Shown here piece by piece: positions 9,074 through 44,842 of a DNA stretch of 64,000 nt. Source of the stretch: Spirochaetota bacterium (GTDB lineage Bacteria; Spirochaetota; UBA4802; UBA5550). Made by a program: the position numbers and the translations under genes. How positions within the stretch are numbered: the stretch's first letter is position 1; each line of letters starts with the position of its first letter. Location: positions 1-64,000 of the forward strand of contig QKCL01000035.1 in the NCBI GenBank assembly GCA_003246895.1. The letters run 5' to 3'. The notes under the pieces were generated by a model, which ran no database searches, was not told the DNA's origin, and saw only the letters and a list, made by a program, of their open reading frames with translations.

Positions 9074-10225
9074 ATGAGCATAAGAGAAAAAGCGCTTGAA
9101 ATGCACGAAAAGTGGCAGGGTAAAATCGAGACTGTTGCAAAATCAAAGGTAAACTCAAAGGAAGACCTTTCTATTGCCTACACACCTGGTGTAGCGGAGC
9201 CCTGTAAAGAAATCGACAGAGACGTAGAAAATGCCTATAAATACACAATAAAAGCTAATACTGTTGCTGTTGTTTCTGACGGAACTGCTGTACTCGGTCT
9301 TGGCGATATCGGTCCAGAAGCGGCTATGCCTGTTATGGAAGGAAAATGTGTACTTTTTAAAGAATTTGCAAATGTAAACGCCTTCCCTATCTGTCTTGCA
9401 ACAAAGGACACAGAGGAAATCATTAAAACTGTACAGTACCTCGCTCCAACATTCGGCGGAATCAACCTTGAAGATATTGCCGCTCCAAGATGTTTTGAAA
9501 TCGAAAGAAGGCTGAAGGAAACTCTTGACATTCCCGTATTTCACGATGACCAGCATGGTACAGCAATCGTTGTACTTGCGGCAATAATAAATGCTCTTAA
9601 AGTTGTGGGCAAAAAATCTGAAGACTGCAGAGTTGTTATTAACGGTGCAGGATCAGCAGGTATAGCAATCGGAAAACTTCTTATTCAGGAAGGTTTCGGG
9701 AATGTTATCATGGTTGATAAAGCCGGAATTATCTATGAAGGAGCAGAATGGGCAAACTGGGCACAGGCAGAAATCGCCAAGACCACAAACAAGAACAAAG
9801 AACAGGGAACACTTTCTGACGCCCTTAAGGGAGCCGATATTTTTGTCGGTGTTTCCGCTCCGGATATAGTATCACCTGAAATGATCAGCACAATGGCCAA
9901 GGATTCAATAGTTTTCCCAATGGCGAACCCGGTTCCTGAAATCATGCCTGACCTTGCAAAACAGGGAGGAGCAAGAATAGTAGGAACAGGTCGATCTGAC
10001 TATCCAAATCAGGTAAACAACGTACTTGCTTTCCCCGGTATTTTCAAAGGTGCGCTGGAGGGAAGAGCAAAGTCAATTACTGAAGAAATGAAACTTGCAG
10101 CAGCTTACGGAATCGCAAGCATGATTCCTGACAATGAACTTAGCGAGGAAAACATTCTTCCTGCACCTTTTGCAAAGGGTATTGCAGACAAGGTTGCAGC
10201 AGAGATCAAAAAATGCATTAAGTAG
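9074..10225 (+). CDS. NAD(P)-dependent malic enzyme
   Basis: AYTPGVAEPCKEI, VFHDDQHGTAIV, NGAGSAGIAI, ANPVPEIMPD. Confidence 0.96.
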   Translation: MSIREKALEMHEKWQGKIETVAKSKVNSKEDLSIAYTPGVAEPCKEIDRDVENAYKYTIKANTVAVVSDGTAVLGLGDIGPEAAMPVMEGKCVLFKEFANVNAFPICLATKDTEEIIKTVQYLAPTFGGINLEDIAAPRCFEIERRLKETLDIPVFHDDQHGTAIVVLAAIINALKVVGKKSEDCRVVINGAGSAGIAIGKLLIQEGFGNVIMVDKAGIIYEGAEWANWAQAEIAKTTNKNKEQGTLSDALKGADIFVGVSAPDIVSPEMISTMAKDSIVFPMANPVPEIMPDLAKQGGARIVGTGRSDYPNQVNNVLAFPGIFKGALEGRAKSITEEMKLAAAYGIASMIPDNELSEENILPAPFAKGIADKVAAEIKKCIK

Positions 10226-10244
10226 TTTCTATTAAATTGAACAT

Positions 10245-10274
10245 AAAAAAGCCCGGAAAATTCCGGGCTTTTTT
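10245..10274. terminator. Bidirectional intrinsic terminator
   Basis: AAAAAAGCCCGGAA-aa-TTCCGGGCTTTTTT between convergent genes. Confidence 0.92.
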
Positions 10275-11470
10275 TAATCACATCTGTAGATAAACTTGTC
10301 CTTTCTTGAGATTGCAGTAAACGTTACGAGAGCAAAGACAGAAAGGGAAACCGGAATCAACCAGAAAGAAGTAAAATCGGGTTTTGAATTTTTAATTACA
10401 TACAGATCCATTGCAAAACCGGCAGTGATATTGGCAATGAGTGTACCGAACCCGGATGTTACCAGTGAAAATATCTGATGTACCCCTGCCCTGTAATATT
10501 CTTTACAATGACTGTCTATATACACATAAACTGATGTGAAAAAAAACGCATAGGCCAGCCCGTGAAAACCTATACCGGCTAGTATCCCGGCAACTGAATC
10601 CTTGAAAAATATAAAGAAGAAGAATCTCGTAATTTCCGATATAATGCCGAAAATCAGCATATTTTTGAATCCGAACTTTCCAAGAAATAATGACAGGTAG
10701 AGCATGACAATAACTTCGGTAACCTGTCCCACGCTCATTAATGGAAATATTTCAGATTCAGTAAACCCTGACTCCGAGAGAAAAGGAGCCATGCCGAAAT
10801 AATAATATTTATCCACCACTACTATGAGCAGACTGGTGAAGGAAATCATGAAAATTTTTCTGTCCCGGAATACAGTAAAAGCCTCAACCGGAAGAAGGCC
10901 GCCCCTATACCTGTGTCTCTCCAACTTTGAAACAGGCAGAGTCAGGGCATACAGTGACAACACAAACGATGAAACAGAAGAAAGAAGCAATGGAGCTGAC
11001 GAACTGTTTTTTTGAGAACTTATAACATGAAAAATCCCCCATACCACAAAGGCAGCACCTATCCACCCCACAGTTCCCCATAGGCGGATATTTCCGAATC
11101 TGCTCCTGTCTCCTCCATGCTGAAAGGTGATTGAATTTGAAAGCGCAATAGTGGGGCCGATGCATAGTGAATAGAAAAAATAGGCTGCAGCAATTGAATA
11201 AAAACCTGCAGAGTCAAGAAGAAGAAGCATCAGTCCTCCCCCCATAAGATGACAAAGGGCAAACAGCCTCTCGGAGCTGACAATTCTGTCGGCGACAACT
11301 GCTCCGATCATGGGTGAAATAAAGGCCACAGCAGAGGCCAGAGAAAGTATAATGCCCATCTGACCGCCAGTGAGACCTGCATGATTTTTCAGATAAAGAG
11401 TCATGACCGGGACATAGGCTCCAAGTACAAAATACTCACAGAACATCAACAGACTCAGCCGTACTCTCAT
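10274..11470 (-). CDS. MFS transporter (nucleoside:H+ symporter / LacY-like)
   Basis: About 12 hydrophobic segments; N-terminal MRVRLSLLMFCEYFVLGAYVPVMTLYLKN. Confidence 0.8.
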   Translation of the reverse strand: MRVRLSLLMFCEYFVLGAYVPVMTLYLKNHAGLTGGQMGIILSLASAVAFISPMIGAVVADRIVSSERLFALCHLMGGGLMLLLLDSAGFYSIAAAYFFYSLCIGPTIALSNSITFQHGGDRSRFGNIRLWGTVGWIGAAFVVWGIFHVISSQKNSSSAPLLLSSVSSFVLSLYALTLPVSKLERHRYRGGLLPVEAFTVFRDRKIFMISFTSLLIVVVDKYYYFGMAPFLSESGFTESEIFPLMSVGQVTEVIVMLYLSLFLGKFGFKNMLIFGIISEITRFFFFIFFKDSVAGILAGIGFHGLAYAFFFTSVYVYIDSHCKEYYRAGVHQIFSLVTSGFGTLIANITAGFAMDLYVIKNSKPDFTSFWLIPVSLSVFALVTFTAISRKDKFIYRCD

Positions 11471-15974: not shown

Positions 15975-18900
15975 CTACTCAATAACATCTTCAATTTCCC
16001 CTTCCATTTCAAGGAATATATTCTGAAGTTCATTTATCCTTTCATCTGAGGTTTCCCACATTCCTCTGGCAGAGGCTTCAAGCAGCTTGCTCACAATATT
16101 CTGCAGGGCATATGGATTAACTTCCTTCATCCATTCGCGCATTTCCGGGTTAAGGGCATATTTTTCAGAAAGCATATCATAGAGAAAGTCATCAACTATC
16201 TCTGCTGTTGCATCCCAGCCGAAGACTATATCTACTATTTTTGAGAGGTCTCCTGCTCCCTTATATCCATGTTTTTTCAATCCATCAATATATTTGGGAT
16301 TGAATATCTTTGCCCTGAAAAGCTGTTTCGATTCTTCATCAAGAGTTCTGTTTTTTACGTGTGAGGGATCACTGGAATCTCCATATACAGAAAAAGGAAA
16401 TTCGCCCTTAACAGTTTTTACTGCAGAAATGAGTCCGCCGTAATAATTGTAATAATCGGTACACGAAAACATATCGTATTCCCTTGAATCATTGTTCTGG
16501 ACAGTTGCATCTGTTCTGGAAAGAAGATTTTTAAATGCACCTGTTTTCAACGCTCCATACTCTCCATTTTTATAACCGTATGAAGACCAGTTAATAAACA
16601 TATTGCCGAGTTCGAAACTGTCGTTCCAGACACTGCACTCAACCAGTTCCTTGACACCTGCCCCGTATGTTCCCGGAGGTGAACTGAACACACGGAATGT
16701 GGCCTCATTCATTGCCTCATCCTGAGACATGCCGCTGACTGTGTATTTTTGAATATCGGAATATACATTCTGTTTGAGAATATTGCTTTCAGGAGGTTCA
16801 TCCAGAGCCACAACCATGGCCACGGCATCGTTCATCAAATCCATGAGATTGGGGAAAGCATCCCTGAAGGAACCGGAAGCGCGTGTCATTACATCATACC
16901 TGGGCCTCTTCAATTCCTCAAGAGGTATTATCTCCAGATCAGTCACTTTGCCTACGCTGTCCCATACAGGTTTTACTCCCAGAAGGTAAAGAATCTCCGC
17001 CAGAGTCTCCCCCTTTGACCTCATGACAGAGGTGCTGGTCATAAAAAAAGCAACAGTTCTAAGTTCAGAGCCTGTTTCTCCTTCGTACTTCTCTATTAGA
17101 CTGTCTCCGAGTTTAACACCGGTATCCCAGGCGACCTTGGTCGGAATTTTAGACGGATCGACCGAATAGAAATTCTTACCCGTTGGCAGGATATCCGCCT
17201 CTCCCCGGGTTGGGGCACCCGAAGGGCCGGGCTCAACATATTTACCATCCAGTGCAGCAAGAGTTGAATCAATCTCCTCCCTTGTTCTTAAAATATTCGA
17301 GTAAAGCCTAGAGCATATATATTCCATAGATTTTTTTATTGCCGGAATGTCTCTGCCAAAAAATTCATTTATAATTTCAGGAATTGAGCCTGCATCAAAA
17401 TTTTTATCAGACAGTGCCTGTACAATACTCACGCATTTTTCATGTGCAAGTGAAATGATCTGCCCGCCGGTTTTCCGCTTATAATGGGACAGAATCTTCC
17501 CTTTATTCTCAATTAATTCATCATAGTCATAGCCCATTGCATAAATTACAGACTCCCTCAACGAAGGAGCTTCGTCATTGTCTATGCGTGTCAGCTGAAC
17601 AATGAACTCCACAAGTTTGCTGCCCTCAGGATGTTCACCGATTGTATGAAGGCCGTCACTGATCATTGTATCAGAGATATCCTCAAGATACCCGTGTATC
17701 TTTTCAACAGAGGACACAAGGTTTTTCTGAAAAATATCCTGAGTCAAATTCATATCCTTGTCCAGATTCGCTTTTACAACGGCTTCCCATATCTGCTCAC
17801 CGGCAGTTCCCATTTGTGTCTGATTATTAAATTTGGCATCATAATAATTCTTTATGGTATTTTCAAGATCGGTCAGTTCATCATATAGTTTGGAATTTGT
17901 CATTGGAGGAGTTAAATGGTCAATGATGCAGCAGTAGCTTCTACGCTTTGCCTGCATACCCTCGCCCGGATTGCTGATTATGTAATAATAGATATTCGGC
18001 AGATCCATTATGGAAAGATCGGGATAGCATTCCTCACTGAGTCCAAGGGCTTTCCCAGGAAGCCATTCGAGGGAGCCGTGTGTTCCAACATGAATCACAG
18101 CATCGGCTCTGAATATATTTTTTATCCATCTGTACTTTGCCAGATAATGATGTGTAGGGCACAGATCCGTATCATGCATTAACTCATCGAGTTTTTCCAT
18201 TTCCCCTCTGGGAGGCTGCATCGTTATAAAGAGATTCCCGTTATGGACACCTGCAAAATTCAGAGTATCGTCATGGACAAAAACCTCTCCCGGCATCTGC
18301 CCCCAATGTTTAACCATATGTTCCCGTACTTCATAGGGGAGTTTTTCATGCCAGGGTATATAAACTTCCCTTTCTGCCCAGGCTTCAGACTTTTCAGCCA
18401 TAGTTTCGGGAATTACATATCTCTTGTCATATGTCATCCTTGACAGCATATCACTTGAAAGGGCATCACCGTTTTCATATGTTCTGTCAACATTATAGCC
18501 CTCTTCTTTCAGCCGGTCAATGAGATTCTTTATACTTGCGAATGAATCCAGGCCCATTGCACATCCGATTCTGTCATTCCTCGGCGGATAATGATGAAAG
18601 ATAATCGCTACTTTCTTGTCTTTATTTTTCTTCTTCGAAAGCCGGATCCAGTTTAAGGAGAAAGAAACAAGTTTTTCAATCCTTTCAGGCATACCCACAT
18701 TTCTGGAAATCAAAGCTCCGGAATTTTTATCAATAATGTCTGATTCTCTGGTTCCTGTGTTCATATTGATAATGACACCGTCAAATTCAGGCAGGGCAGC
18801 CGAAGCCATTACATCAATTACAGTTACTCCCTGTTCGCTCTCTTTCCATTCTTCGTAGCTGTTGCGCCCGTTCATTACCTGTAGAACAGGAACACCGAGA

Positions 18901-19745
18901 TTTTCAAACATTCCCTTAAGGTCAGGCCTTAAGAGGTTCATTGAAAAGCTCAATGAATTAAGGAGAAGATCGATTCTGGATTTGCCGTTCTCCATAAAGA
19001 AACTATCTATAACTGAGTCGGGCCCCATGCCTCCTTCAATTTTATCACCGTTCCTGTTCAAGAATACAGCAACCACACCTGTACCCTGTTTTTCAATTTC
19101 CCTTATTATCTTGTCAATATTATCGAGGTTACTGTTTTTCCAGAAAGTGTTATGAAACCACAGGCCTATTACAGGCTGATCCTTTTTGATAAATTTTTCA
19201 TAATACTCTTCCGGTTCTGGGATACAATCCAGATCAGGATGATATATACCCTGCTCAGCAGTTTTTATTACAGGAGAGTATTCTATATATTTATTACCCA
19301 GAATATTGAACATATAGCAGAACATATTTCTGATATTTGTGACACCGCCGTTATCACTGTATTCACAGATTTTGATCCAGTTCTCTGTATTGAAACTGCT
19401 TGAATATTTTCCACATATATCAGCCACAACCATTCCCGGACCGCTCGACTGGATATGAACATATGGAGTTTCCCTGCCTTCATTTTTACATCTGTCAATT
19501 TCCCCGAAAAACTTATCCGAAGCGGGAAAGGAATCTTCTGCACCGTGCAGGCCTATGTAGACTATATCTGAATTCATTGCATTTTTGACAAAGCTATCTA
19601 TGCTGTTTTCATCAAAGAACTGATCCTTTGTTCGGGCATGGCATTTAATATCATGACCGGATCTTTGCATTTCAGTGATAGCTGAATTTAGGTTGGATAG
19701 GTCGTTCCCCGAGGAACTGAAGTAGGCTATTTTATATGTTTTCAT
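15975..19745 (-). CDS. cobN: CobN-type class I chelatase large subunit (copy 1)
   Basis: 1256 aa; VAIIFHHYPPRNDRIGCAMGLDS, DAVIHVGTHGSLEWLPGKALGLSEECYPDL, REYDMFSCTDYYNYYGG. Confidence 0.93.
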   Translation of the reverse strand: MKTYKIAYFSSSGNDLSNLNSAITEMQRSGHDIKCHARTKDQFFDENSIDSFVKNAMNSDIVYIGLHGAEDSFPASDKFFGEIDRCKNEGRETPYVHIQSSGPGMVVADICGKYSSSFNTENWIKICEYSDNGGVTNIRNMFCYMFNILGNKYIEYSPVIKTAEQGIYHPDLDCIPEPEEYYEKFIKKDQPVIGLWFHNTFWKNSNLDNIDKIIREIEKQGTGVVAVFLNRNGDKIEGGMGPDSVIDSFFMENGKSRIDLLLNSLSFSMNLLRPDLKGMFENLGVPVLQVMNGRNSYEEWKESEQGVTVIDVMASAALPEFDGVIINMNTGTRESDIIDKNSGALISRNVGMPERIEKLVSFSLNWIRLSKKKNKDKKVAIIFHHYPPRNDRIGCAMGLDSFASIKNLIDRLKEEGYNVDRTYENGDALSSDMLSRMTYDKRYVIPETMAEKSEAWAEREVYIPWHEKLPYEVREHMVKHWGQMPGEVFVHDDTLNFAGVHNGNLFITMQPPRGEMEKLDELMHDTDLCPTHHYLAKYRWIKNIFRADAVIHVGTHGSLEWLPGKALGLSEECYPDLSIMDLPNIYYYIISNPGEGMQAKRRSYCCIIDHLTPPMTNSKLYDELTDLENTIKNYYDAKFNNQTQMGTAGEQIWEAVVKANLDKDMNLTQDIFQKNLVSSVEKIHGYLEDISDTMISDGLHTIGEHPEGSKLVEFIVQLTRIDNDEAPSLRESVIYAMGYDYDELIENKGKILSHYKRKTGGQIISLAHEKCVSIVQALSDKNFDAGSIPEIINEFFGRDIPAIKKSMEYICSRLYSNILRTREEIDSTLAALDGKYVEPGPSGAPTRGEADILPTGKNFYSVDPSKIPTKVAWDTGVKLGDSLIEKYEGETGSELRTVAFFMTSTSVMRSKGETLAEILYLLGVKPVWDSVGKVTDLEIIPLEELKRPRYDVMTRASGSFRDAFPNLMDLMNDAVAMVVALDEPPESNILKQNVYSDIQKYTVSGMSQDEAMNEATFRVFSSPPGTYGAGVKELVECSVWNDSFELGNMFINWSSYGYKNGEYGALKTGAFKNLLSRTDATVQNNDSREYDMFSCTDYYNYYGGLISAVKTVKGEFPFSVYGDSSDPSHVKNRTLDEESKQLFRAKIFNPKYIDGLKKHGYKGAGDLSKIVDIVFGWDATAEIVDDFLYDMLSEKYALNPEMREWMKEVNPYALQNIVSKLLEASARGMWETSDERINELQNIFLEMEGEIEDVIE

Positions 19746-19823: not shown

Positions 19824-21905
19824 TTATATCTTGAATGATGCGCCAACGCCTATATAACGCCCATCCTGCGGGTAGTATCCAAAGCTACTTGAATATCTCA
19901 TCCAGATATTGTTAAAGATGTTGGTGCAGGTTGCATAAACCTCAGTATTTTTATATGAGTACGTTGCCTTCATATCAGCGAAAACTGCTGAATCAAGTTC
20001 ATAGTCTTTGTCATTGAGGTCATCGCTGTACTGTTTGCCGAATCCGTAAACATCGAAAGAAACAAGGAATTTTCCAAATGAGGCATTATCAAGTGGATAT
20101 ACATCAAGACCAACTCTGAACTCATAGTCAGGTGTATTTTTTATCTTTTTGCCTTTGAGGTCCTGTATTACACTGCTGCTGTCTTTTAGCTGGCCCTTCT
20201 CCCATTCCGCATCTATGGTTGTAAACCCGATTCTGTAGCCTATTAGTTTTACAGGCCTTCCGTCTACTTCAAGCTCTATACCTTGGTGAATCGAATCACC
20301 ACCGTTGTAATACCCTTTAACATCGGTGCCTACATAATAATAAACAATTTTATCACTTATTTTTGTTCTATATGCAATAATGCTGTAATTAAAGGCTGAG
20401 TTGAAACGGTGTTTGAAACCAAGTTCAAATGTATCAAATACTTCGGGTTTAAGATCATCAACCTGAGGCAAAGTCAGATCAGAAGAATTTCCAGCATTTA
20501 CTGAAAGATTGTAAATATTGGTAAATGCATTAGAATGGTTGTAGTTCAAAAACAGGTTGCTATCTTCAAAAATTGCAATCGATGGAGATACATTATAATC
20601 ATAATTATTATCATATGTATGTGTAACATCGTCTTTTCCGGTACTTTCATCGTATCCATATTTATATTTTAAATAATTGTATCTCAAACCGGCAGTGAGT
20701 CTGAAAATTCCGATGGCAAGATCATTATTAACATTTATACCAAGACTGGATTTCTTTGAAACAATATCACTGCTTGTTTGGGATGCATCTGTATCTGCCT
20801 TGTTGACATAGGTCACATCATAATCATAAGTCTCAAAATTATAGTCGGCACCAATGTTAAAAGTATTTACAATACTATCTCCAAGGATAAAACGGTATCC
20901 TCCATTAGCTTTTGCTGAATATTGATGGTCAATACCATCATATTGGTAACGGCTGGTAGAAGTTGATCCAACATATAATTTATCATAAAACTCATCCTGT
21001 TTCCCGTATGTCAGATATGCGTTCAGAATAATATTATCTTTGTCATAGTTGAAGTTCAAACCTGATGTGTATTGTGTAAACTCCTTGGGGCATCCAGGTG
21101 TACCGTTTGCAATGTCACGGGGATTATCTTCAGCATACTCCAAAGGTTTCATTCCCTGGGCAGAAGTGTATGCATTATTCATATAGTTGGCAACGAACTG
21201 CAGTTTGCCGCCATTTATATTCATGCCCACATTTCCGCCGATGCTTTTTGATTTATCATCGGTGTGTCTGAATCCGTCTGTTCTCATCCCTGAGGCATTA
21301 AGGCTATAGTCAAAAATACTCATTGTTCCGTTAATGTTCGCACTTTCTCTATATGTGTTCCAGCTGCCGTATTCAGCTGACAGCTGAGCGTGAAAAGTGT
21401 TTTCAGTTGAATCTTTTTTTCTTTTTCCTTTTTTGGTTGTAATGAGTATTACACCCTTGGCAGCATTTTTCCCGTAAATGGCAGTAGATGGAGACTTAAT
21501 TACCTCAATCTTCTCAATACTGTCCATTGGTATCAGGTCTATACTGCAGTAGTCAAATCTTCCGCCAAACATTGGCACACCATCTAAATAAACAACCGGG
21601 CCGCCGGACATTCCAGTAGGCCTTGTTCCCCTGATACTGAATTCAGTTCCGGAACTGTACCTCTGGTTTACCACCCCGGGAATCGTTGAAATATAGTCAC
21701 CAATTCTGGTTTTCCCGCTCTTCTTGATGTCTTCTGCTGTGATAACCGTAATCGATGAATTAGTATCCAAAATTTTTGTCTTTTTACCTGTTTCTGTTAC
21801 TACAACAGTACCAAGTACAGTGTCATTGTCAGTCTCTTCCTCCTGCGCAAAAACAGGCAGAATCGACAAAGACACTAACAGTGAAACATAAATCAAACGT
21901 CTCAT
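19824..21905 (-). CDS. TonB-dependent outer-membrane receptor, BtuB-like (copy 1)
   Basis: Signal peptide; plug domain (IGDYISTIPGVVNQRYSSGTEFSIRGTRP, IEKIEVIKSPSTAIYGKNAAKGVILITTK); C-terminal barrel; cobalamin riboswitch upstream. Confidence 0.92.
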   Translation of the reverse strand: MRRLIYVSLLVSLSILPVFAQEEETDNDTVLGTVVVTETGKKTKILDTNSSITVITAEDIKKSGKTRIGDYISTIPGVVNQRYSSGTEFSIRGTRPTGMSGGPVVYLDGVPMFGGRFDYCSIDLIPMDSIEKIEVIKSPSTAIYGKNAAKGVILITTKKGKRKKDSTENTFHAQLSAEYGSWNTYRESANINGTMSIFDYSLNASGMRTDGFRHTDDKSKSIGGNVGMNINGGKLQFVANYMNNAYTSAQGMKPLEYAEDNPRDIANGTPGCPKEFTQYTSGLNFNYDKDNIILNAYLTYGKQDEFYDKLYVGSTSTSRYQYDGIDHQYSAKANGGYRFILGDSIVNTFNIGADYNFETYDYDVTYVNKADTDASQTSSDIVSKKSSLGINVNNDLAIGIFRLTAGLRYNYLKYKYGYDESTGKDDVTHTYDNNYDYNVSPSIAIFEDSNLFLNYNHSNAFTNIYNLSVNAGNSSDLTLPQVDDLKPEVFDTFELGFKHRFNSAFNYSIIAYRTKISDKIVYYYVGTDVKGYYNGGDSIHQGIELEVDGRPVKLIGYRIGFTTIDAEWEKGQLKDSSSVIQDLKGKKIKNTPDYEFRVGLDVYPLDNASFGKFLVSFDVYGFGKQYSDDLNDKDYELDSAVFADMKATYSYKNTEVYATCTNIFNNIWMRYSSSFGYYPQDGRYIGVGASFKI

Positions 21906-21926
21906 TTTTTACCTCTCTCTTATTTA

Positions 21927-21991
21927 TTCAGTGATTTTTCGGGATAAAAAGAGATACCTGAATCTCTTTGATACCGGTATTGCCGTACCGG
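21927..21991 (-). ncRNA. Candidate structured leader element, copy A
   Basis: Minus strand: CCGGTA-CGGCAA-TACCGG, then hairpin AAAGAGAT-TCAGGT-ATCTCTTT, then AAATCACTGAA; lies between a cobalamin riboswitch terminator and the TonB receptor. Confidence 0.55.
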
Positions 21992-22014: not shown

Positions 22015-22250
22015 AAAAAAACCCCATGACCTATCAGACATGGGGCTCCCTATTTACCTCATTACTGAAATTCCCAATCCCGTAGGGAACAATTCATGAC
22101 AGGGCAGGTCTTCTGACTTCCATCTCTTCCTTAATCACCGGCCTTCCCGCGTTAGTACGCAGTGGCATCTACGGCTTTAGTCAATGGTTACAGCGGCGGG
22201 TCCGTACCCGATTTGAACGGGTTTCCCTATTAATCCAAATAGAACCTTGT
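22015..22250 (-). promoter_or_regulatory. Cobalamin riboswitch 1 with intrinsic terminator
   Basis: Minus strand: GGACCCGCCGCTGTAACC, GATGCCACTGCG, AGTCAGAAGACCTGCC, then CCCCATG...CATGGGG-TTTTTTT. Confidence 0.95.
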
Positions 22251-22378
22251 CATTTATTAAAAGTTGTTGCATACAGAAAATTCTGAAAGAAAATTTTGTA
22301 AAGTTTATTTTAAAAAAATGTAACTTTTTAACAGAAATACCTATTTAACCGCAACCGGTACCGTTGATAATCCGCTTT

Positions 22379-28036: not shown

Positions 28037-29016
28037 CAGTGTGCACTCCCGTGTTTATTACTGCTGTGTTTAGAAGAATCATGTGCACTTTGTGCGCTAT
28101 GTGCACCCCCTCCTCCATGAGGTCCATGCGCTCCTCCATGCGGCGATGCCCCGGCTGCTGAACCGTTCAGTCCACCGTTTTCGGCAATCTTAAGTCCTGT
28201 TCTGGCAATAAAGGCATCTTCCAGATTTACCCTTCTCTTTGTGCAGCAGAGTTCCCTGCCGTTTATGAACGCATCAAGACTCTGCATGTCCCTGAAGTAC
28301 TTTGTCACAAGTTCACCGTGAGCCATTATGTCCAGAGCCCATACGCCCATCTCATCTATAAAATGCTGCGGAGTATTCACGGAAACAATCTCTCCCTCCT
28401 GAAGGAATGCTACCCTGTCAGCGAGAAATTCAGCCTCTTCTATATAGTGAGTAGTAAGAAAAACCGTTGTCCCCTTCTGCTGTATTTTCTTGATCAGTGA
28501 CCATATCTTTCTTCTTATTACGGGATCAAGGCCCGCTGTGGGTTCATCGAGAAAAAGAATTCGTGGAGAATGCATCATGGCGCGGGCAATCATGACTCTT
28601 CTTTTCATACCGCCAGATAGTTCCATTACCCTGCTGTCAATACGGTCTGCTAGTTCCACATAATCAAGAACCTCTTTTATTGCAGCATCCCTGTCTTTTC
28701 TTGACATACCGTGAAGCCTTCCATGTATGTCGAGATTCTGCCTGATGGACAGTTCCTGATCAAGGTTTACCGCCTGTGTAACAAGACCGAACTGGTTTTT
28801 GCATTCAAGAACATTATCCTCTATACTGAATCCATTCAGCTTTGCTGAGCCAGATGTGCTTTTGGTAAGGCCTGTCAGTATTCTGATAGTAGTTGTCTTG
28901 CCTGAACCGTTTGGCCCCAGATATGCGAAGAGTTCACCTTTACCTACTTCAAGTGATATGCCCTTCAACGCCTGCACTCTGGGATATTTCTTCTGTAAAT
29001 TTTCTATATTAATCAT
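28036..29016 (-). CDS. ABC-2 exporter ATPase with His/Gly-rich C-terminal tail
   Basis: LGPNGSGKTTTIRILTGLT, LSGGMKRRVMIARAM, LFLDEPTAGLDP; tail SPHGGAHGPHGGGGAHSAQSAHDSSKHSSNKHGSAH. Confidence 0.9.
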   Translation of the reverse strand: MINIENLQKKYPRVQALKGISLEVGKGELFAYLGPNGSGKTTTIRILTGLTKSTSGSAKLNGFSIEDNVLECKNQFGLVTQAVNLDQELSIRQNLDIHGRLHGMSRKDRDAAIKEVLDYVELADRIDSRVMELSGGMKRRVMIARAMMHSPRILFLDEPTAGLDPVIRRKIWSLIKKIQQKGTTVFLTTHYIEEAEFLADRVAFLQEGEIVSVNTPQHFIDEMGVWALDIMAHGELVTKYFRDMQSLDAFINGRELCCTKRRVNLEDAFIARTGLKIAENGGLNGSAAGASPHGGAHGPHGGGGAHSAQSAHDSSKHSSNKHGSAH

Positions 29017-30071
29017 CAGGCGTTCAAACCTCTCTTCATTGATGCTTCCTTTCTAACCTGTGAAATATCCTGCCTTATTTCCTGAAGAGGCAGTCTTCTC
29101 ATTCTGTGAGGAAGGACAAACATTGAAGCCTTTTCAATATCCTCCATGGAAACCTTGTTTCTCCCCATATGCGCAGCTATTGTTTTGGCCGCTTTCAGCA
29201 TTATGATGTCCCCCCTGTGGCCGTCCACATCAAGCTCAACCGAATACCTCGCTATCTCTTCAAGTATATCATCCGTATATTCTACACTGTTTACATCCTT
29301 CGAGGCACTGACAATGGATTCTGCAATCTTATCAGACTCACCTGACCAGTTTTCACAGAATCGTTCAGGATTATCATCAAAATCGATTCTCCTTTTCATT
29401 ATCTCGACCCTGTGGGATACTTCATTTATACCCTCAACATTCACGCACAGGCCGAATCTGTCCAGAAGCTGCGGCCTAAGCTCACCCTCTTCAGGATTCA
29501 TTGTTCCCACAAGTGTGAACTTCGCGGGGTGAGAAAAAGACACCCCTTCTCTTTCAACTGTGTTGAGTCCCATTGCAGCCGAATCAAGCAGAACATCTAC
29601 AACATGATCATCAAGAAGGTTTACTTCATCCACATAAAGAATACCCCGGTGTGCCTCTGCAAGTATGCCGGGTTCAATTTTTTTTTCACCCTTCTGAAGT
29701 GCATGTTCAAGGTCCATCGTACCAACTACCCTGTCTTCAGTGGCTCCCACTGGTAGTTCCACGACACGGATTTTTCTCAAATAGGTTTCGGCTTTCCCGG
29801 ACTTGACCATTTCACGACACTCTCCTTTCTGGCAGTTCTCGCAGAGTTTAATATCTTCACCCGGTGCAAGCTGAAATGGACAGTCCTTTACCACTTCAAT
29901 TTCCGGAAGAATTTCAGCAAGAGCTCTTACCGCTGTTGATTTAGCTGTTCCTTTCTCTCCTCTGATAAGTACACCTGAAAGTCCAGGATTGATAATATTC
30001 AGAATGAGTCCTTCCTTCATTTTTTCCTGCCCTACAATTGCCGCGAATGGGAATATTTTTTTCCTAGCCAT
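29016..30071 (-). CDS. ChlI/BchI-type AAA+ chelatase subunit
   Basis: GEKGTAKSTAVRALAEILPEIEVV, GILYVDEVNLLDDHVVDVLLDSAAMG, GTMNPEEGELRPQLLDRFGL; Cys-rich insertion. Confidence 0.92.
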   Translation of the reverse strand: MARKKIFPFAAIVGQEKMKEGLILNIINPGLSGVLIRGEKGTAKSTAVRALAEILPEIEVVKDCPFQLAPGEDIKLCENCQKGECREMVKSGKAETYLRKIRVVELPVGATEDRVVGTMDLEHALQKGEKKIEPGILAEAHRGILYVDEVNLLDDHVVDVLLDSAAMGLNTVEREGVSFSHPAKFTLVGTMNPEEGELRPQLLDRFGLCVNVEGINEVSHRVEIMKRRIDFDDNPERFCENWSGESDKIAESIVSASKDVNSVEYTDDILEEIARYSVELDVDGHRGDIIMLKAAKTIAAHMGRNKVSMEDIEKASMFVLPHRMRRLPLQEIRQDISQVRKEASMKRGLNA

Positions 30072-32169
30072 TTTTATTACTCCTGTTTATTACACCAAGT
30101 ATATCTGATGCCTTAAGATCTTCTATTTTAAAGTATTCAGCACCTAAATGGTCTGATAGTTTGCGCGCAAGCCCGAAAGTAACGGCACCTGCTTCTTCTG
30201 TATCTATGACGATGTATTTAATTCTGCTTTCACGTGACATTTTATCTGCATATTCAAAAACCTCATCCATGGGTTTACCATTCCCGACAGCGTAGTTCGA
30301 CCTGCCGTCAGTCATGAGTATCATTACAGGCCTCATTGACGGGTCCTTTATAAGGTTTGCAGAAAGTATTTCATACCCCTTTGCAAGCCCCACGGAAAGC
30401 GGTGTCCTGCCGCCCACAGGCATTTCGCGAAGTTTTCCGGCAGCCATGTCCACTGATGATGTAGGAGGGAGCAGTACTTCCGCTTCTTTCTTCCGGAAAG
30501 TTACAAGTCCCACCCTGTCTCTCTTCTGATATGCATCAAGCAGGAGAGACATTACTGCACCCTTTGACGCAGCCATTCTTCCCTTTGCCCCCATTGAGCC
30601 TGATGCGTCTACCGTAAAAAGAATCAGGTTGCCTATCTTCTTCTCCCTCTCCTTTATACGGATATCTTCTTTCTTTATAGATATAAGAACGTCGTTGCTT
30701 CTCTTTCTGTGTTTCTGGAACGGTGCCGCAGCCCTGATTGTTGCATCAAAAGCGATATCCGAACTTTCCCTTTTGGAAAAAACAGAACGCATATAACGTC
30801 CCTGTTTCTGCCCGGTTTTAGTTCTCGAACGCCTGCCGGATCCCCGTCTCTCTACCCTGTCCCTGGCAATACTTATCTTTTTTACCTTGAAGGTTTCTCC
30901 AATCGAAAAAACTTCTTCCTTCACGTTATCATTATCATCATTGGATGGAGGCGGAGGAGACATGTCAGGCATTCTGTCATTTTCACCTTCGGACTCATCA
31001 GGCTGATCCTGTTGTTCATTCTGTTCCTGATTCATTTCCTCTTCAGGAGATTCATCTTCACCTTCATCCTCATCGTCTTCTTCCTCTGTCTCACCGTTAT
31101 CCTGTTCAGGCATATCAGGATTCTCATCCTGTTCCTGATTATCCTGATCATCTTCATTATTTTCAGGAGGTTCCGGCGGAGGAGGAGTCTGATTATGTGA
31201 TTCCCGTGTCCTGTGAACAAGAACCATTTCGGCCACTGCTAGTATTTCATCTACAGTTACCTCTTTTTTACCCTTGTAGGCGGAGAGTGCCTTAGCCGCC
31301 CTTTTCAGAATAATATCAGCCCTGTGCCCTGCAACATTTCTGCTGAGGCAGAGTTCAGATATGTATTTTTTCAATGTCTTTGATATTGTCACAGATGGAA
31401 GGTTTCTTCTTGCCGCAAGTATATCATCAGCAATCGATTCATTTTCTCCTGAATATTTAGCGATAAATGCATGAGGTTTTGTATCAAACTCTTCACGAAG
31501 TTTCATGAGTCTTATTCTTTCAGCAATATCTCTGCTTCCCGCAACATTCACACACAGGCCGAACCGGTCAATAAACTGGGGCCTCAGGTCACCCTCTTCG
31601 GGATTCATTGTACCCACAAGCATAAAGGAACAGGGATGCGAATATGAGATACCTTCACGTTCAATAATATTTATTCCTGAAGACGAAGAATCGAGAATTA
31701 TATCTACAATATGATCATCCAGAAGGTTAACTTCATCAATATACAGTATGCCCCTGTTAACCCTGGCAAGAAGGCCGGGCTGAAAAACCTTTTTCCCAGA
31801 CTTGATGGCAGACTCAAAATCTATGCTCCCTGCTATCATGTCTTCTGTACTGTTTAAAGGAAGAGTCTCTACTCTGACCCTGCGCATCTCTGATTCATCT
31901 GAAAAAGAGGCACACGTCTGACAGAAAGAACAACCCTGTATACTTCCGTAATGGCAGCCTTTTCGTACCTCAATTTGAGGAAGAATCTCCGCAAGGGCTC
32001 TGACAGTAGTCGATTTGGCCGTTCCCTTTTCACCGCGGATAAGCACACCGCCGATATTTGGATCAATGGCATTGAGGATGAGGGAAAGCTTCATATCATC
32101 CTGTCCCTCTACCGCCGCAAAAGGGAAAAGAAGCCGTGACTGTTTAATTTCAGGCAACCTAGAATTCAT
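30064..32169 (-). CDS. ChlD/BchD-type chelatase subunit (AAA+, acidic/Pro linker, VWA domain)
   Basis: AAA+ N-terminus, PPPPEPPENNEDDQ... acidic linker, MIDAS DASGSM, C-terminal VWA. Confidence 0.93.
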   Translation of the reverse strand: MNSRLPEIKQSRLLFPFAAVEGQDDMKLSLILNAIDPNIGGVLIRGEKGTAKSTTVRALAEILPQIEVRKGCHYGSIQGCSFCQTCASFSDESEMRRVRVETLPLNSTEDMIAGSIDFESAIKSGKKVFQPGLLARVNRGILYIDEVNLLDDHIVDIILDSSSSGINIIEREGISYSHPCSFMLVGTMNPEEGDLRPQFIDRFGLCVNVAGSRDIAERIRLMKLREEFDTKPHAFIAKYSGENESIADDILAARRNLPSVTISKTLKKYISELCLSRNVAGHRADIILKRAAKALSAYKGKKEVTVDEILAVAEMVLVHRTRESHNQTPPPPEPPENNEDDQDNQEQDENPDMPEQDNGETEEEDDEDEGEDESPEEEMNQEQNEQQDQPDESEGENDRMPDMSPPPPSNDDNDNVKEEVFSIGETFKVKKISIARDRVERRGSGRRSRTKTGQKQGRYMRSVFSKRESSDIAFDATIRAAAPFQKHRKRSNDVLISIKKEDIRIKEREKKIGNLILFTVDASGSMGAKGRMAASKGAVMSLLLDAYQKRDRVGLVTFRKKEAEVLLPPTSSVDMAAGKLREMPVGGRTPLSVGLAKGYEILSANLIKDPSMRPVMILMTDGRSNYAVGNGKPMDEVFEYADKMSRESRIKYIVIDTEEAGAVTFGLARKLSDHLGAEYFKIEDLKASDILGVINRSNKNG

Positions 32170-33915: not shown

Positions 33916-36900
33916 TTATTTAAGACTCTTTTCACTAACAACAGCATCTTCGATCTCTCCCTCAATTTCGAGATATGCTTCACGAAGTGCCTCTTCCCTC
34001 TGCTCATCGGCATTCCACATTCCCCTGCCAATGGCCTCGAGAAGTTTATCTATTATATTCTGAAGCGCGTATGGATTTACTTCCTTCATCCATTTCTGCA
34101 TTTCAGGATCAAGTGCATATTTATCTGCGAATCGGTCATACATATGATCCTCAACAACCTCTGCAGTTGCATCCCATCCGAGCACAACATCCATCATCTT
34201 GGAAAGATCTCCCGCACCCTTGTATCCGTGACGTTTCAATCCTTCTATATACTTGGGATTAAGAAGCCTTGCCCGGAAAACAAGTTTGGCCTCCTCATCT
34301 GTAGTTCTTACCTTAACTCTTCTGGGATCACTGGTATCGCCGTATACAGACATTGGGTATGATCCCTTGACTGTTTTAACTGCTGCGATCAGTCCGCCAT
34401 AGTAGTTGTAGTAGTCTGTACATGAAAACATATCGTATTCTCTTGAATCGTTGTTCTGTACTGTGGCATCGATCCTTGAGAGCACTTTTTTGAATGTATC
34501 CGGTTTCTTCGCACCATACTCTCCTGAACCGTATGCATGGCCTGACCAGTCTATGTAGGCATTGCCGAGGTCATCCCGAGACTCCCACTGCTTGGATTCT
34601 ACCAGTTCGGAAACTCCTGCTCCGTATGTTCCGGGAGGGCAGCTGAATACCCTGAATGAAGATTCTTTTTTTGCATCTGCCTCAGACATCCCCTGTTTAC
34701 GGTAGTCCTCATAGTCCCTGTAGACATTTCGTCTGAGTATATTGCTTTCGGGAGGCTCATTCAGTGCAGCCACCATCTTCACTGCATCATCCATCATCTC
34801 CATGAGATTCGGGAATGAGTCCCTGAAAAAACCGCTTGCACGCATTGTTACATCGAATCTGGGCCTTCCCAGTTCAGAAAGCGGGATTGGTTCAACCCCC
34901 TTGACTTTTCCACCGTTCTGCCATACAGGCCTTACTCCCATGAGATATAAAACCTGCGCAAATGTATCCGCCTTTGTTCTCATGGTGGAGGTTCCAGTTA
35001 TATATACAGCAACCTGTTCAGGATACTTGTTCAGCTCCTTCAGACTTCTTTCGATGAGGGCTTCAGCCAGGCTCACACCCACTTCCCATGCTCCGGGACT
35101 TGGAAGTTTTGAAGGATCTACCGAATAAAAGTTTCTTCCTGTAGGAAAAATATTTGCCTCTCCCCTTGTTGGCGCGCCTGAAGGCCCCTCTTCAACGAAG
35201 CCCCCCTTAAGTGCTGTCAATATAGAATCAATCTCCTGCACCGATTTTTCAATATTAGGTACAAGGGTATCTACTATGTATTTCAGGACTTCTTCAAGCT
35301 GAGGTGTCAGTTCGAGTTCTGCATCAGATACAGCCTGTGCAATACTTTCATGGGCAAAACCTTTACTTTCAATGTGTTCTACAATTGAAAGACATTTCTC
35401 ATGGGCCATCTGAACAATCTGTCCGCCTGAACGTCCGTTAAAATGGGGCAAAACCCTGCCCTTGTTTTCAAGGAGTTCATCATAATCGTACCCCATGCCT
35501 CTTATGACTGATTCTCTCAGTGACGGCGTCTCATCATTTGCAAGTCTTGTGAGCTGCACGATAAATTCGACAAGTCGTCTTGCAGCAGGAAAAGTCCCCA
35601 TTGTATGAAGTCCGTCGGATATCATTGTATCGGATATTCCTTCCAGGTATCCGTGCATCTCTTCCATGAAAGTTTCAAAGTCGGCCTTTGCCTCCTCCTC
35701 TGTTATCTTCATGTCCTTATCTATTTCAGCCTCGGCTACTGCATCCCAGACAAGGTCACGGTGGATAGGCAGTTTTTCAGGATCCTGCCGCTCTGCATCC
35801 TGATAGTCACGGATGGCATTATCGAGCTTCTCCATTTCTTCATAGAGGCCTGAATTTGTTGTTGCAGGAATCATGTGATCGATGATACAGCAGTAGCTTC
35901 TTCTCTTTGCCTGTGTCCCCTCTCCAGGATTATTTATTATGTATGGATAAATATTCGGAAGATCCATTATGGCAAGGTCCGGATAGCACTCCTCACTCAA
36001 TCCAAGGGCCTTTCCTGGCAGCCACTCGAGGGTACCATGTGTTCCGACGTGAATAACTGCATCTGCCTTGAATACATTTTTTATCCACCTGTACGTTCCA
36101 AGATAATGGTGAGGAGGAGACATATGCTTATCATGAACAAGTTCCTCCATGTTTTCAAGTTTGCCCCTTGGAGGCTGCATAGTGATGAAGACATTACCAT
36201 TCACTGTCCCTGCAAAATTTATTCTGTCATTATATGTAAAGAGTTCACCGGGCATTTCTCCCCAGTTTTTTATCATATGGTTCCGGGTCTTTTCAGGAAG
36301 TGTTTCATGCCAGGGCATGTATGTTTCTCTTTCGGCAAAGGCTTCAGCTTTTTCCGCCATGGCGTCAGGAGTCTCCCATCTCCTGTCATAGGTCATTCTT
36401 TCGAGAATCTCCGATGCCATGTGATCTCCGTCATCATAGGTTCTCTCAACGACATATCCTTCTTCTTTCATTCGGTCCATGAGGAGTTTAATACTCATGA
36501 ATGTATCAAGACCGGATGCACATCCGATTCTGTCATTTCTCGGAGGGTTATGATGAAAGATTACAGCTACTTTTTTATCTTCATTTTTCTTATGGGAGAG
36601 CCTTGCCCAGTTAAGGGCAAGTGATACAAGTTTTTCCACACGATCTGGAATAGGTCTGTTCTTTGAAATAAAGGCTCCGGTTAGTGGTTCTACAATATCA
36701 TTTTCCCTTGTTCCAGTATTTACGTTAATCAGGGCACCGTCAAATTCAGGCTGTGCAGCAGAAAAAATTACATCAAGAGTACTTACTCCCTGCTCTCCAT
36801 CTTTCCAGTCAGCATAGGAGTTAGTCGATACCATTGTCTGAAGAAGCGGTACTCCAAGGCCTTTGATTACCCCCTTAAATTCAGGTTTGATCAGATTAAG

Positions 36901-37689
36901 AGAAAAATTCATTGCATTTAGCAGTACTTCAATTACAGGTTTCCCATTATCCATGAAGTAGTGTTCTACCAGCCTGTCCACAGACATATTTCCTTCTTTG
37001 TTTCCCGCATATCTGTTATGGAAAACTGCAATAACAGATGCCCCCTGTTTCTCTATTTCACGGATAAGAGCATCTATATGTTCCAGATTTTTGTTTATCC
37101 AGTATGTCTGGTAAAACCAGATTCCAACTACAGGCTGACCCTTCTTTAAAAATTTTTCCCTGTACTCATCCACATCAGGAAGATGTTTAAGATCAGGATG
37201 ATAAATACCCTGCTGTAATGTATTAACAGGTTCGTCATATGGTATATCTTTATCTGATACTATATTGGCAAGAAGCAAAACCATATTTTTCAGGTTTTCC
37301 ACTCCTCCGGCAGTATAAAACTGTACAAGTTTTTTCCAGTTTTCAGATCTGCCTTCTGTTGAATACTTCTGTGCAGCTGTAAGAGCCTCCATATCTCCCT
37401 GAATATGAACGTATGGAATCTTTTCTCCTTTCCTTTTCTTCTCTTCTATAGCATCCATAAGAGGTGCAAATGCAGGACATGACTCCTCTCCTCCATGCAA
37501 TCCTATGTATATCAGATTTGAATTCAGAGATTTTACTATATAATCATCTATGAGAAATTCATCTTCAAGCTGAACCTTAGTCTTCGCCTGTATCCTTATG
37601 CTGTATTTCTCCGCAATTTCTGAAAGGGCAATTCCCAGATTCCCCATTTCTCCGCCTGTTGCGCTGAAATACGAAATTTTAACGCTCAT
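33916..37689 (-). CDS. cobN: CobN-type class I chelatase large subunit (copy 2)
   Basis: 1257 aa; DAVIHVGTHGTLEWLPGKALGLSEECYPDL; collinear with 15975..19745. Confidence 0.93.
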   Translation of the reverse strand: MSVKISYFSATGGEMGNLGIALSEIAEKYSIRIQAKTKVQLEDEFLIDDYIVKSLNSNLIYIGLHGGEESCPAFAPLMDAIEEKKRKGEKIPYVHIQGDMEALTAAQKYSTEGRSENWKKLVQFYTAGGVENLKNMVLLLANIVSDKDIPYDEPVNTLQQGIYHPDLKHLPDVDEYREKFLKKGQPVVGIWFYQTYWINKNLEHIDALIREIEKQGASVIAVFHNRYAGNKEGNMSVDRLVEHYFMDNGKPVIEVLLNAMNFSLNLIKPEFKGVIKGLGVPLLQTMVSTNSYADWKDGEQGVSTLDVIFSAAQPEFDGALINVNTGTRENDIVEPLTGAFISKNRPIPDRVEKLVSLALNWARLSHKKNEDKKVAVIFHHNPPRNDRIGCASGLDTFMSIKLLMDRMKEEGYVVERTYDDGDHMASEILERMTYDRRWETPDAMAEKAEAFAERETYMPWHETLPEKTRNHMIKNWGEMPGELFTYNDRINFAGTVNGNVFITMQPPRGKLENMEELVHDKHMSPPHHYLGTYRWIKNVFKADAVIHVGTHGTLEWLPGKALGLSEECYPDLAIMDLPNIYPYIINNPGEGTQAKRRSYCCIIDHMIPATTNSGLYEEMEKLDNAIRDYQDAERQDPEKLPIHRDLVWDAVAEAEIDKDMKITEEEAKADFETFMEEMHGYLEGISDTMISDGLHTMGTFPAARRLVEFIVQLTRLANDETPSLRESVIRGMGYDYDELLENKGRVLPHFNGRSGGQIVQMAHEKCLSIVEHIESKGFAHESIAQAVSDAELELTPQLEEVLKYIVDTLVPNIEKSVQEIDSILTALKGGFVEEGPSGAPTRGEANIFPTGRNFYSVDPSKLPSPGAWEVGVSLAEALIERSLKELNKYPEQVAVYITGTSTMRTKADTFAQVLYLMGVRPVWQNGGKVKGVEPIPLSELGRPRFDVTMRASGFFRDSFPNLMEMMDDAVKMVAALNEPPESNILRRNVYRDYEDYRKQGMSEADAKKESSFRVFSCPPGTYGAGVSELVESKQWESRDDLGNAYIDWSGHAYGSGEYGAKKPDTFKKVLSRIDATVQNNDSREYDMFSCTDYYNYYGGLIAAVKTVKGSYPMSVYGDTSDPRRVKVRTTDEEAKLVFRARLLNPKYIEGLKRHGYKGAGDLSKMMDVVLGWDATAEVVEDHMYDRFADKYALDPEMQKWMKEVNPYALQNIIDKLLEAIGRGMWNADEQREEALREAYLEIEGEIEDAVVSEKSLK

Positions 37690-40195: not shown

Positions 40196-41389
40196 TTATT
40201 TTACCCACTTTTCTTCAAAGCCCATGGCTATGAGGTCATTTATAAAATTCGTAAAAGTTTCTCTCTCAAGTTCAGGCTCAAGCACCTTTATTTTTTCCAT
40301 ATAATAAGTTATTCTTTTATATTTACCCGAAACAGATGCGGCGATGTATGCACCCTGATGATTAAATATTTCCGGAATACAGCTTTCAGGAAGTATACCC
40401 CAGACGATTTTATCCCGCAGATGTATGAGAGAAACCACTGACGCAACTACAAGCGGGTCCTTGTCTATTACTGAAAAATTATCCCTGAATAGGTCTGCAT
40501 CCTCACTGTTAAGACGACTCTGAATTCGTTCTATCATTGACTCTCTTGTCAGACCGAAACGGATCATATGATTAAGGCATGATCTCTGTGTCTCAGGTGT
40601 AAGATCATTCTGAAGAGCAAGTGTTCCCTTTATAGCGGCATGTACAGCCTTACCGATAAGTTCCCCTAGCATTGAATGTTTGCCGGCACTGGCAAGCGGT
40701 GTACCCGTATTCATGACACAGGCAACTCCTATCTGATCAGTACCTGTTCCTGTCGCAAGGCCGCTTGAATACTTAGATCCAACAGCCAGTTCCTGCAGGA
40801 CAGCACTCTTGGCCTCGGTCGATGTCATAATGGACCTTACCATTGCCCCTTCTGTGAGTTCCCTGTTTATGAAAAGCATTGTGTTTATTGTACCATGAAG
40901 AACCGGCTTTATGTCTCCGACCTGATGGAACCTGCCGTTCTCCTCGAATACAGTTGCAGGATCTCCAACTCTTCCTGCATTTCCTTCGACTCCACCAGTA
41001 CAGACAGCAAGCACTGACAAATCTTTAAACGATGCTTCCCTGAATACAGCATTTCTCATATTGGCAGCAGTACCTAAAGTTACACATTTTTCATGCGGGA
41101 GATCATGAAGACCGCAAATCATCTCCTTATCTCCCTGTGGACTCCTGGCTGCAATTGAATGACTCATGCTGTGATGATTGGCCGGTTCACATGACTGGTG
41201 ATTATACATATAGAGCATATCATCATGTATCCCTCCGCTTACTCTGCACGTAGATATGACACGGTGAGGTTTCAAAAATTCCGCATAGACAATTCTTTCT
41301 TCCCTGTAAACAACCACTGTATCATCAAACCTTTTAAGAATCATCTCTCCACCCAGTTTCCTTCTCTTCTCACCATTTTTCAGTCTCAT
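40196..41389 (-). CDS. cbiZ: Adenosylcobinamide amidohydrolase, CbiZ family
   Basis: VCTGGVEGNAGRVGDP, TSTEAKSAVLQEL, SGLATGTGTDQIGVAC; start may be internal at 41344. Confidence 0.8.
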   Translation of the reverse strand: MRLKNGEKRRKLGGEMILKRFDDTVVVYREERIVYAEFLKPHRVISTCRVSGGIHDDMLYMYNHQSCEPANHHSMSHSIAARSPQGDKEMICGLHDLPHEKCVTLGTAANMRNAVFREASFKDLSVLAVCTGGVEGNAGRVGDPATVFEENGRFHQVGDIKPVLHGTINTMLFINRELTEGAMVRSIMTSTEAKSAVLQELAVGSKYSSGLATGTGTDQIGVACVMNTGTPLASAGKHSMLGELIGKAVHAAIKGTLALQNDLTPETQRSCLNHMIRFGLTRESMIERIQSRLNSEDADLFRDNFSVIDKDPLVVASVVSLIHLRDKIVWGILPESCIPEIFNHQGAYIAASVSGKYKRITYYMEKIKVLEPELERETFTNFINDLIAMGFEEKWVK

Positions 41390-41785: not shown

Positions 41786-41924
41786 TGAAGTTTCTTTTAA
41801 AACATACTCCGGGGCGGAATTTACCTGTGAAACAGCGAATTCTGGAATCCGAAAATGTTGAAATATCTCCTTATTTTTTTAACAATTTGATTGACTCCAG
41901 AATAAGAGGATATTAAACTTACTA

Positions 41925-41994
41925 TTTCAGTGATTTATCTCTCTCTTGGGAGTAAATTCTCAGGTATCCGGGTAATTGCCGTTATCCGGATACC
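41925..41994 (-). ncRNA. Candidate structured leader element, copy C
   Basis: Minus strand: GGTATCCGG-A-TAA-CGGCAA-TTA-C-CCGGATACC ... CCCAAGAGAGAGATAAATCACTGAAA. Confidence 0.6.
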
Positions 41995-42360
41995 ACCTTA
42001 ATATTCAAAAATTTTCATATAAGTAACTGCTGCATTCTGTTCTCAGGAACATGCACGCCCCGGAGCAATCCTCCTGCCTTTATATTTTTTATGTTCATCA
42101 CTGTACCCCTGGATAAACATGGAATTAAAGACAACGCACCGAAAGATGAAAGTGATAAAATATGGATGGTATATAATTCAGAATTGAACTGGCAGAATTT
42201 AGATACTGCCGCTTGTAAAAACAGCAGGAACTCTATCTGTTCTGTTTTGAACAAATTGCGGAAAAGATTATAATTCAGAATTTTTTTCATACCACACTCC
42301 TTCCGGATTATTTTTAAAACCCGAGTGACAGCAGATACACAATTCAGGAGTGAGTTTTTC

Positions 42361-42421
42361 TTTCAGTGATTTATCCCTCTCCTGGGCCTTTTAAAATCAC
42401 ATAATTGCCGCTATGTGATTT
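42361..42421 (-). ncRNA. Candidate structured leader element, copy B
   Basis: Minus strand: AAATCACATA-G-CGGCAA-T-TATGTGATTT ... CCCAGGAGAGGGATAAATCACTGAAA. Confidence 0.6.
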
Positions 42422-42435
42422 ATTATTTCCGGGCA

Positions 42436-42685
42436 TAAAAAAACCCCGAAACCTTTACTGGCCACGGGGATTCCCATTTTATCCTCGACTATTCCACAGA
42501 CTGCTGCCCTGCATTGCGGATTTAGTATCAACAGGTCTTCTGGCTTCCGGATCATTCTGAAAAACTGAGCCTTCCCACCCTAAGGCAGTGGCATCATTTC
42601 AGTTTCAGTCCCCGGTTACAGCGATGGGTTCGCTCCCGACTTTAACGGGATTCCCTTTGACCTCCGTGTTATGGAGGATTGATAC
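42436..42685 (-). promoter_or_regulatory. Cobalamin riboswitch 2 with intrinsic terminator
   Basis: Minus strand: GAACCCATCGCTGTAACC, GATGCCACTGCC, AGCCAGAAGACCTGTT, then CCCCG...CGGGG-TTTTTTT. Confidence 0.93.
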
Positions 42686-42790
42686 AACAAATATTTCAAA
42701 TAACTTTCTTTAAGACTAAAATCTTCCAGACTGCTGTCAATAAAATTTTAATTTTATTGTAACAATTTCTCATGACTATTTAAAAAACAG

Positions 42791-44531: not shown

Positions 44532-44785
44532 TAAAAAACCCCATACCAGTTGGTATGGGGTCCCATTTTTTCCACATATCATTTAAAGGTGAAGTCATCC
44601 CTACCCCGGATTTCCTCACATAAAACAGGCAGGTCTTCTGACTCACGGATCATCCTACTAACCACGCCTTCCCGGAATATTCCAGTGACAATCTGTGGCT
44701 TTCGTCCCCGATTACAGCGGTGGGTCCGTACCCGAATTTAACGGGTTTCCCTATTCTCTTCTTAATTCAAAGAAGAACCTGATTT
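44532..44785 (-). promoter_or_regulatory. Cobalamin riboswitch 3 with intrinsic terminator
   Basis: Minus strand: GGACCCACCGCTGTAATC, GTCACTGGAAT, AGTCAGAAGACCTGCC, then CCCCATACCA-AC-TGGTATGGGG-TTTTTT. Confidence 0.95.
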
Positions 44786-44842
44786 ATACAAAAGTTATTT
44801 CTAACATCAATTTTTGTAAGAACTTGTCAAGAAAAAAATCAT

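Follow-up and report, generated by a model that had tools for sequence, protein, structure and literature searches.

In the leaders of corrinoid-uptake genes of a Spirochaetota bacterium we identify a conserved RNA element composed of two hairpins, the first of which (SL1) carries a CGGCAA hexaloop, while the second (SL2) begins roughly 10 nt after it. The existence of this element is well supported, and it is probably a second, receptor-specific control point above the usual B12 riboswitch. The functional reading that we put first, tentatively and at a little short of an even chance, is that of a cis-acting 5' UTR element of corrinoid-uptake cistrons, mostly those of TonB-dependent receptors, which would be read by a trans factor, probably at translation initiation.

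Three copies (A, B and C) lie in the window, i.e. the whole 64,000-nucleotide stretch of DNA that was analysed, all on the minus strand and with the sequences and coordinates given in the original prediction. Two further copies (D and E) lie on another contig of the same genome (G000):

21974-21991, minus strand: hairpin 1 of copy A (CCGGTA-CGGCAA-TACCGG), which precedes the TonB-dependent receptor gene at 19824-21905; arm pairing p=0.016 against shuffles
21980-21985 and 21927-21937, minus strand: copy A, CGGCAA and AAATCACTGAA respectively, from the sequence
21908-21963, minus strand: remainder of copy A, with a AAAGAGAT/ATCTCTTT hairpin, AAATCACTGAA and the Shine-Dalgarno sequence AAGAGAGAGGT
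42394-42421, minus strand: copy B hairpin 1, an 11-bp stem around CGGCAA; arm pairing p=0.0006
42405-42410 and 42362-42372, minus strand: copy B, CGGCAA and AAATCACTGAA respectively, from the sequence
42343-42384, minus strand: copy B putative hairpin 2, CAGGAG...CTCCTG, with AAATCACTGAA in the loop; stability not above shuffles
41963-41994, minus strand: copy C hairpin 1, a stem around CGGCAA with one mismatch; arm pairing p=0.0002
41976-41981 and 41926-41936, minus strand: copy C, CGGCAA and AAATCACTGAA respectively, from the sequence
41891-41951, minus strand: copy C hairpin 2, ACTCC..AAGAG..GATA-AATCACTGAAAT..TATCCTCTT..GGAGT, then CAA; z=-1.8
L011 7465-7518, minus strand: copy D, preceded by a cobalamin riboswitch with a terminator and followed by the gene of a TonB-dependent receptor
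L011 10341-10393, minus strand: copy E, in the same setting as copy D (cobalamin riboswitch and terminator before it, TonB-dependent receptor gene after it)

These five copies are exactly the matches returned by the pattern CGGCAA-N25-55-AATCACTGAA in the whole genome (3.57 Mb), in which the reversed control pattern has none. Neither word is significant by itself, as CGGCAA alone occurs 49 times in the window and AAATCACTGAA alone 16 times in the genome. All five are transcribed towards corrinoid genes. The same pattern gave five scattered matches in 58 relatives, none of which was flagged by a screen for a stem around the loop.

In SL1 the hexaloop is closed by R-U and carried on a stem of 6-15 pairs, the arms of which pair better than shuffled arms in all nine copies that we now recognize, including four from two other genomes (F1-F3 and H, see below; p = 0.016 for A and <=0.0073 for the others). 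The stems of A, B and C had been described as entirely different yet complementary, which is borne out by their pairing, except for the mismatch in copy C. Similarly, the loop is invariant within this genome, as originally claimed, but copy H has CAGCCA in its place, leaving CGGCAA in eight of the nine copies. In an alignment of eight copies 92.9% of the SL1 cells are paired, six pairs have changed on both sides, and the covariation score is reached by none of 500 shuffles; when the register is slid the paired fraction drops to 25-45% and no register attains that score. SL1 is also stable by itself. These shuffle statistics ignore the relatedness of the copies: several are close paralogs (D/E and F1/F2), the leaders of D and E being 94% identical and hence not independent, and the covariation accordingly rests on few independent events, with perhaps five or six of the nine copies in three genomes being independent. 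As read from the alignment, the covariation supports pairing at the RNA level, but cannot alone separate translational control from a static stabilizer.

A covariance model (R1) built from copies B-E was used to scan the 46 genomes of the order and recovered homologs in only two others, both of another family, namely F1-F3 in G024 and H in G033 (E 2.6e-5 to 1e-3). The model had not seen these genomes; F3 had been spotted by eye before R1 was built, but was not included in it. The homologs come from two further genera, retain the order SL1-linker-SL2 and are sited before TonB receptors or a lipoprotein gene. Independent grounds for homology are provided by the R1 matches together with the shared order of parts and the shared genomic position. 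The four additional copies and the SL1 covariation bear out the original contention that this is a constrained RNA rather than a chance pattern. A second model (R2), built from eight copies, returned these with E-values of 1e-7 to 1e-20 (5.4e-16 for copy C), which are values for its own training sequences; when 393 genomes from across the phylum were scanned with an E cutoff of 0.01, it found no match beyond G000, G024 and G033 and otherwise gave weak opposite-strand echoes of the same sites. The element thus has a narrow distribution in these scans, which use filters that lose weak matches. Copy A was missed by both models, probably because its SL2 arrangement differs.

None of the 4227 Rfam families matched the element at the gathering score, in agreement with the earlier view that it fits no known class; with E up to 10, for copies B, C and F1, the best sub-threshold match, at 24.5 bits where the threshold is 47, was CyaR on the strand opposite to F1. 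The cobalamin riboswitch (RF00174) matched only upstream of the element, and had no match at copies B, C and F1 even at E up to 10. Like this riboswitch, the element is a leader RNA of corrinoid genes and is found on the same transcripts in the case of A, B, D, E, F3 and H, but it follows the riboswitch terminator, shows no aptamer match and also occurs without an adjacent riboswitch (F1 and F2). In its combination of a conserved loop, a variable stem and a conserved neighboring word it recalls protein-binding hairpins of the lambda nut boxB type, although the boxB loop is unlike CGGCAA and a search of G000, G024 and G033 turned up no dedicated NusG paralog.

The AAATCACTGAA word, initially taken for a conserved tail, is present in all five genomic copies but not outside this genome, and its position is in most copies the terminal loop of the second hairpin, SL2 (C-E in this genome), rather than a free tail. 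In F1-F3 and H the loop at the corresponding position differs (e.g. AACCCTTTCAT, AAACTCTACAT), indicating that AAATCACTGAA is lineage-specific, unlike CGGCAA. F1-F3, H and C share a fold of 15 pairs with almost no covariation (ACTCTC-GGAGA-GATA-loop-TATC-TCTCC-GAGAGT-CAA), and D and E have an equivalent stem in a different register. The stability of SL2 exceeds that of shuffles in D, E and F1-F3 (z -2.0 to -4.7), less clearly so in C (z -1.8) and H (z -1.5), and not in the corresponding regions of A and B.

To place the element in its genomic setting, we list the principal features around the window copies:

42513-42698, minus strand: cobalamin riboswitch aptamer upstream of copy B (RF00174, 99.5 bits), then the terminator CCCCG...CGGGGTTTTTTT
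22086-22264, minus strand: cobalamin riboswitch aptamer upstream of copy A (RF00174, 114.2 bits), with the terminator CCCCATG...CATGGGGTTTTTTT
19824-21905, minus strand: TonB-dependent receptor (BtuB-like), the cistron behind copy A (PF07715 E=3e-23, PF00593 E=5e-29)
42015-42290, minus strand: ORF of 91 codons that separates copies B and C and lacks a Pfam match
40196-41389, minus strand: CbiZ (adenosylcobinamide amidohydrolase), downstream of copies B and C (PF01955 E=6e-59)

Pfam matches characterize this setting as one of corrinoid uptake and processing (CobN, CbiZ, CbiK, ExbB, ExbD, TonB, a FecCD-type permease, a binding protein and receptors). The same cluster codes for two CobN/Mg-chelatase-type large subunits (15975-19745 and 33916-37689) and ChlI/ChlD-like genes (29016-32169). 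Copies A, D, E and F3 occur in the order riboswitch, terminator, element, receptor, and copy H is followed by a lipoprotein-like gene and then the receptor. Copies B and C are in a single leader, which is followed by a ferredoxin-like gene and CbiZ; of the three copies said to lie between a cobalamin riboswitch and the next gene, C is ~520 nt downstream of the riboswitch, with copy B and the 91-codon ORF intervening. B and C may be the leaders of deleted receptor genes, and a tblastn search gave no convincing receptor remnant. In G024 copy F2 lies behind a riboswitch, ExbB, ExbD and TonB and ~44 nt before the receptor start, and F1 lies behind other genes, with a riboswitch ~4.7 kb upstream and the receptor start ~34 nt downstream (gene names in G024 and G033 were read from translations, the receptors having Pfam support).

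That the element belongs to cobalamin riboswitches is not supported, the link being looser than proposed. Several such riboswitches in the same genomes lack it (44611-44797 in the window, L011 1228-1413, a pair on contig C56 of G000 and one on contig C20 of G033), and F1 and F2 precede receptors without an adjacent riboswitch. Most receptors lack it: in G000 it accompanies three of the five and is absent from two, and in G024 it accompanies three and is absent from 13 of the 16. Taken together, these leaders and receptors without it indicate that the element tracks a subset of corrinoid-receptor cistrons rather than riboswitches. The corrinoid-uptake repertoire of G024 is unusually large, with 19 cobalamin riboswitch matches and 16 TonB-receptor plug domains on contigs C22, C25 and C41. 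The pair on contig C56 of G000 consists of two tandem riboswitches, each with a terminator (L042 1621-2093), with an apparent decayed third near 2300 and no obvious corrinoid gene directly behind.

The SL2 strands suggest how the element might act. The 5' strand is Shine-Dalgarno-like (GGAGAGAGATA), and the 3' strand complements it as an anti-Shine-Dalgarno. Eight leaders have this 3' strand separate from the gene's own Shine-Dalgarno sequence, and in each of them the complementarity between the two exceeds that of strand shuffles (duplex p 0.001-0.046, values that are optimistic since the test came after the complementarity had been noticed), reaching 11 contiguous pairs in F1 and F2. With other genes' Shine-Dalgarno regions as the yardstick, only the complementarity in B, F1, F2 and F3 is exceptional (3-5% of other genes being as strong), that in C, D, E and H being unremarkable (24-40%). 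In most leaders folding prefers SL2 in its closed state. Even with the 5' strand kept unpaired, only some of the leaders form the pairing between the 3' strand and the Shine-Dalgarno sequence. Copy A has the same three segments in another arrangement, in which the anti-Shine-Dalgarno strand can pair to either side: its ATCTCTTTTT strand pairs with either neighbor (ensemble P(1:2)=0.77, P(2:3)=0.13). In copy B CACTCCT can alternatively pair with the Shine-Dalgarno sequence AGGAGTG. The support for an anti-Shine-Dalgarno switch is hence mixed, and we tentatively propose translational control with a trans-read loop as the most likely mode of action. The short distances of F1 and F2 from their receptor starts fit an element of the initiation region. 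We infer that the CGGCAA loop and the SL2 loop would be bound by a trans factor, either a protein or a small RNA, which would shift SL2 between two forms. In the closed form the anti-Shine-Dalgarno strand would be hidden and the ribosome site of the gene free; in the open form this strand would pair with the ribosome site. The receptor would thereby get its own translational setting in transcripts already gated by the cobalamin riboswitch and its terminator. A pattern search for a small RNA with complements of both loops gave one scattered match, as did the control.

The main rival to translational control is a static mRNA-stabilizing or processing structure, which we judge unlikely on balance but a serious contender. 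Under this explanation the two hairpins would shield the receptor cistron against ribonuclease attack or flag a site for cleavage, and the receptor would be made in amounts unlike those of its operon neighbors without any switching. The stems, long and near-perfect and in F1-F3 very stable, the intercistronic position of F1 and F2, and the favored closed form of SL2 all agree with it. A static clamp, however, needs neither a hexaloop kept in eight of nine copies nor an 11-nt word kept in all five genomic copies while the stems change. A bolder version of the translational reading is that the CGGCAA hairpin and the anti-Shine-Dalgarno hairpin form a new class of translational riboregulator, sensing a ligand or a dedicated RNA-binding factor and setting each corrinoid receptor separately in operons that cobalamin riboswitches already gate; we regard this as rather unlikely.

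An outright new riboswitch class, in which SL1 and the SL2 loop would form an aptamer for a corrinoid or other metabolite and SL2 the expression platform, appears improbable. The leader position, the conserved unpaired words on variable stems, the anti-Shine-Dalgarno/Shine-Dalgarno complementarity and the tandem arrangement with cobalamin riboswitches speak for such a device, but little sequence is conserved across the two families (AAATCACTGAA is replaced and one loop is CAGCCA), whereas known aptamers mostly retain many more fixed positions, and the distribution is very narrow.

An origin at the level of DNA, as a small mobile REP-like palindrome or as an antisense promoter or small RNA on the opposite strand, is comparably improbable. 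The suggestion of a small palindromic repeat fits poorly with five copies that are all oriented alike with respect to corrinoid genes and confined to their vicinity in this genome, and with stems that vary by compensation, unlike those of REP or MITE elements. On the other hand, the 94% identical leaders of D and E precede receptors sharing only 32% of their residues, suggesting that leader cassettes may move. The identity spans riboswitch, terminator and element (L011 7341-8000 against 10218-10877, neighboring leaders on contig C90) and 24 of the first 30 receptor residues; leader and signal peptide together look like a cassette that has been exchanged or converted. As for an antisense promoter, GAGTCAA reads TTGACTC on the other strand and copy C contains a 9-of-12 promoter match, but a promoter scan finds none in F1 or F2, and it was rejected as a general explanation.

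It is quite doubtful that SL1 is a second L13-type kissing partner of the upstream cobalamin riboswitch, providing a translational platform besides the terminator. In a studied corrinoid riboswitch the functional kissing bases are CCG in L5 and CGG in L13 (PMC10653944). An initial reading of L5 as UGCCACUG was discarded in favor of the literature consensus UCCCG (PMC10653944), with which the pairing was re-examined. The SL1 loop starts with CGG, L5 of A, B, F3 and H contains CCCG, and the post-aptamer hairpin loop of F3 has CGGTAA, resembling CGGCAA; the SL1 CGG can pair with the L5 CCG in A, B and F3, but not in H, whose loop lacks CGG despite an intact L5. Conversely, D and E keep CGGCAA though their L5 has CCTG, F1 and F2 have no adjacent riboswitch, most of the listed riboswitches already possess their own hairpin between aptamer and terminator, and SL1 is stable unaided.

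A binding site for an ANTAR or NusG-paralog antiterminator, by analogy with ethanolamine operons, in which a B12 riboswitch works jointly with ANTAR hairpins, is very improbable: two hairpins with an invariant hexaloop on variable stems in B12-riboswitch leaders do resemble ANTAR targets (EutV/EutX, Rli55 type) in architecture, but these require a pair of hexaloops that carry A1 and G4 (PMC3369931), while the element has a single hexaloop with C at both positions, a large second loop, and no overlapping or subsequent terminator in the sequences read. A classical ANTAR target is thus disfavored; as for NusG, the genomes G000, G024 and G033 each yielded a single gene of the family.

Returning to translational control by a trans-read element, there is a natural precedent for an additional layer of control over a corrinoid receptor mRNA that does not depend on the riboswitch: E. 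coli btuB is controlled in trans by the small RNA OmrA with Hfq, downstream of its riboswitch (PMC11162775). OmrA pairs within the coding region, whereas the element described here is a conserved structured 5' UTR for which the trans factor is only proposed; its nine copies suffice for designing loop and stem mutants. Corrinoid uptake is usually described as being under the control of one riboswitch. A conserved second leader element on receptor cistrons would point to an undescribed RNA-binding factor or ligand, and would suggest individual setting of the corrinoid receptors in bacteria that possess many of them.
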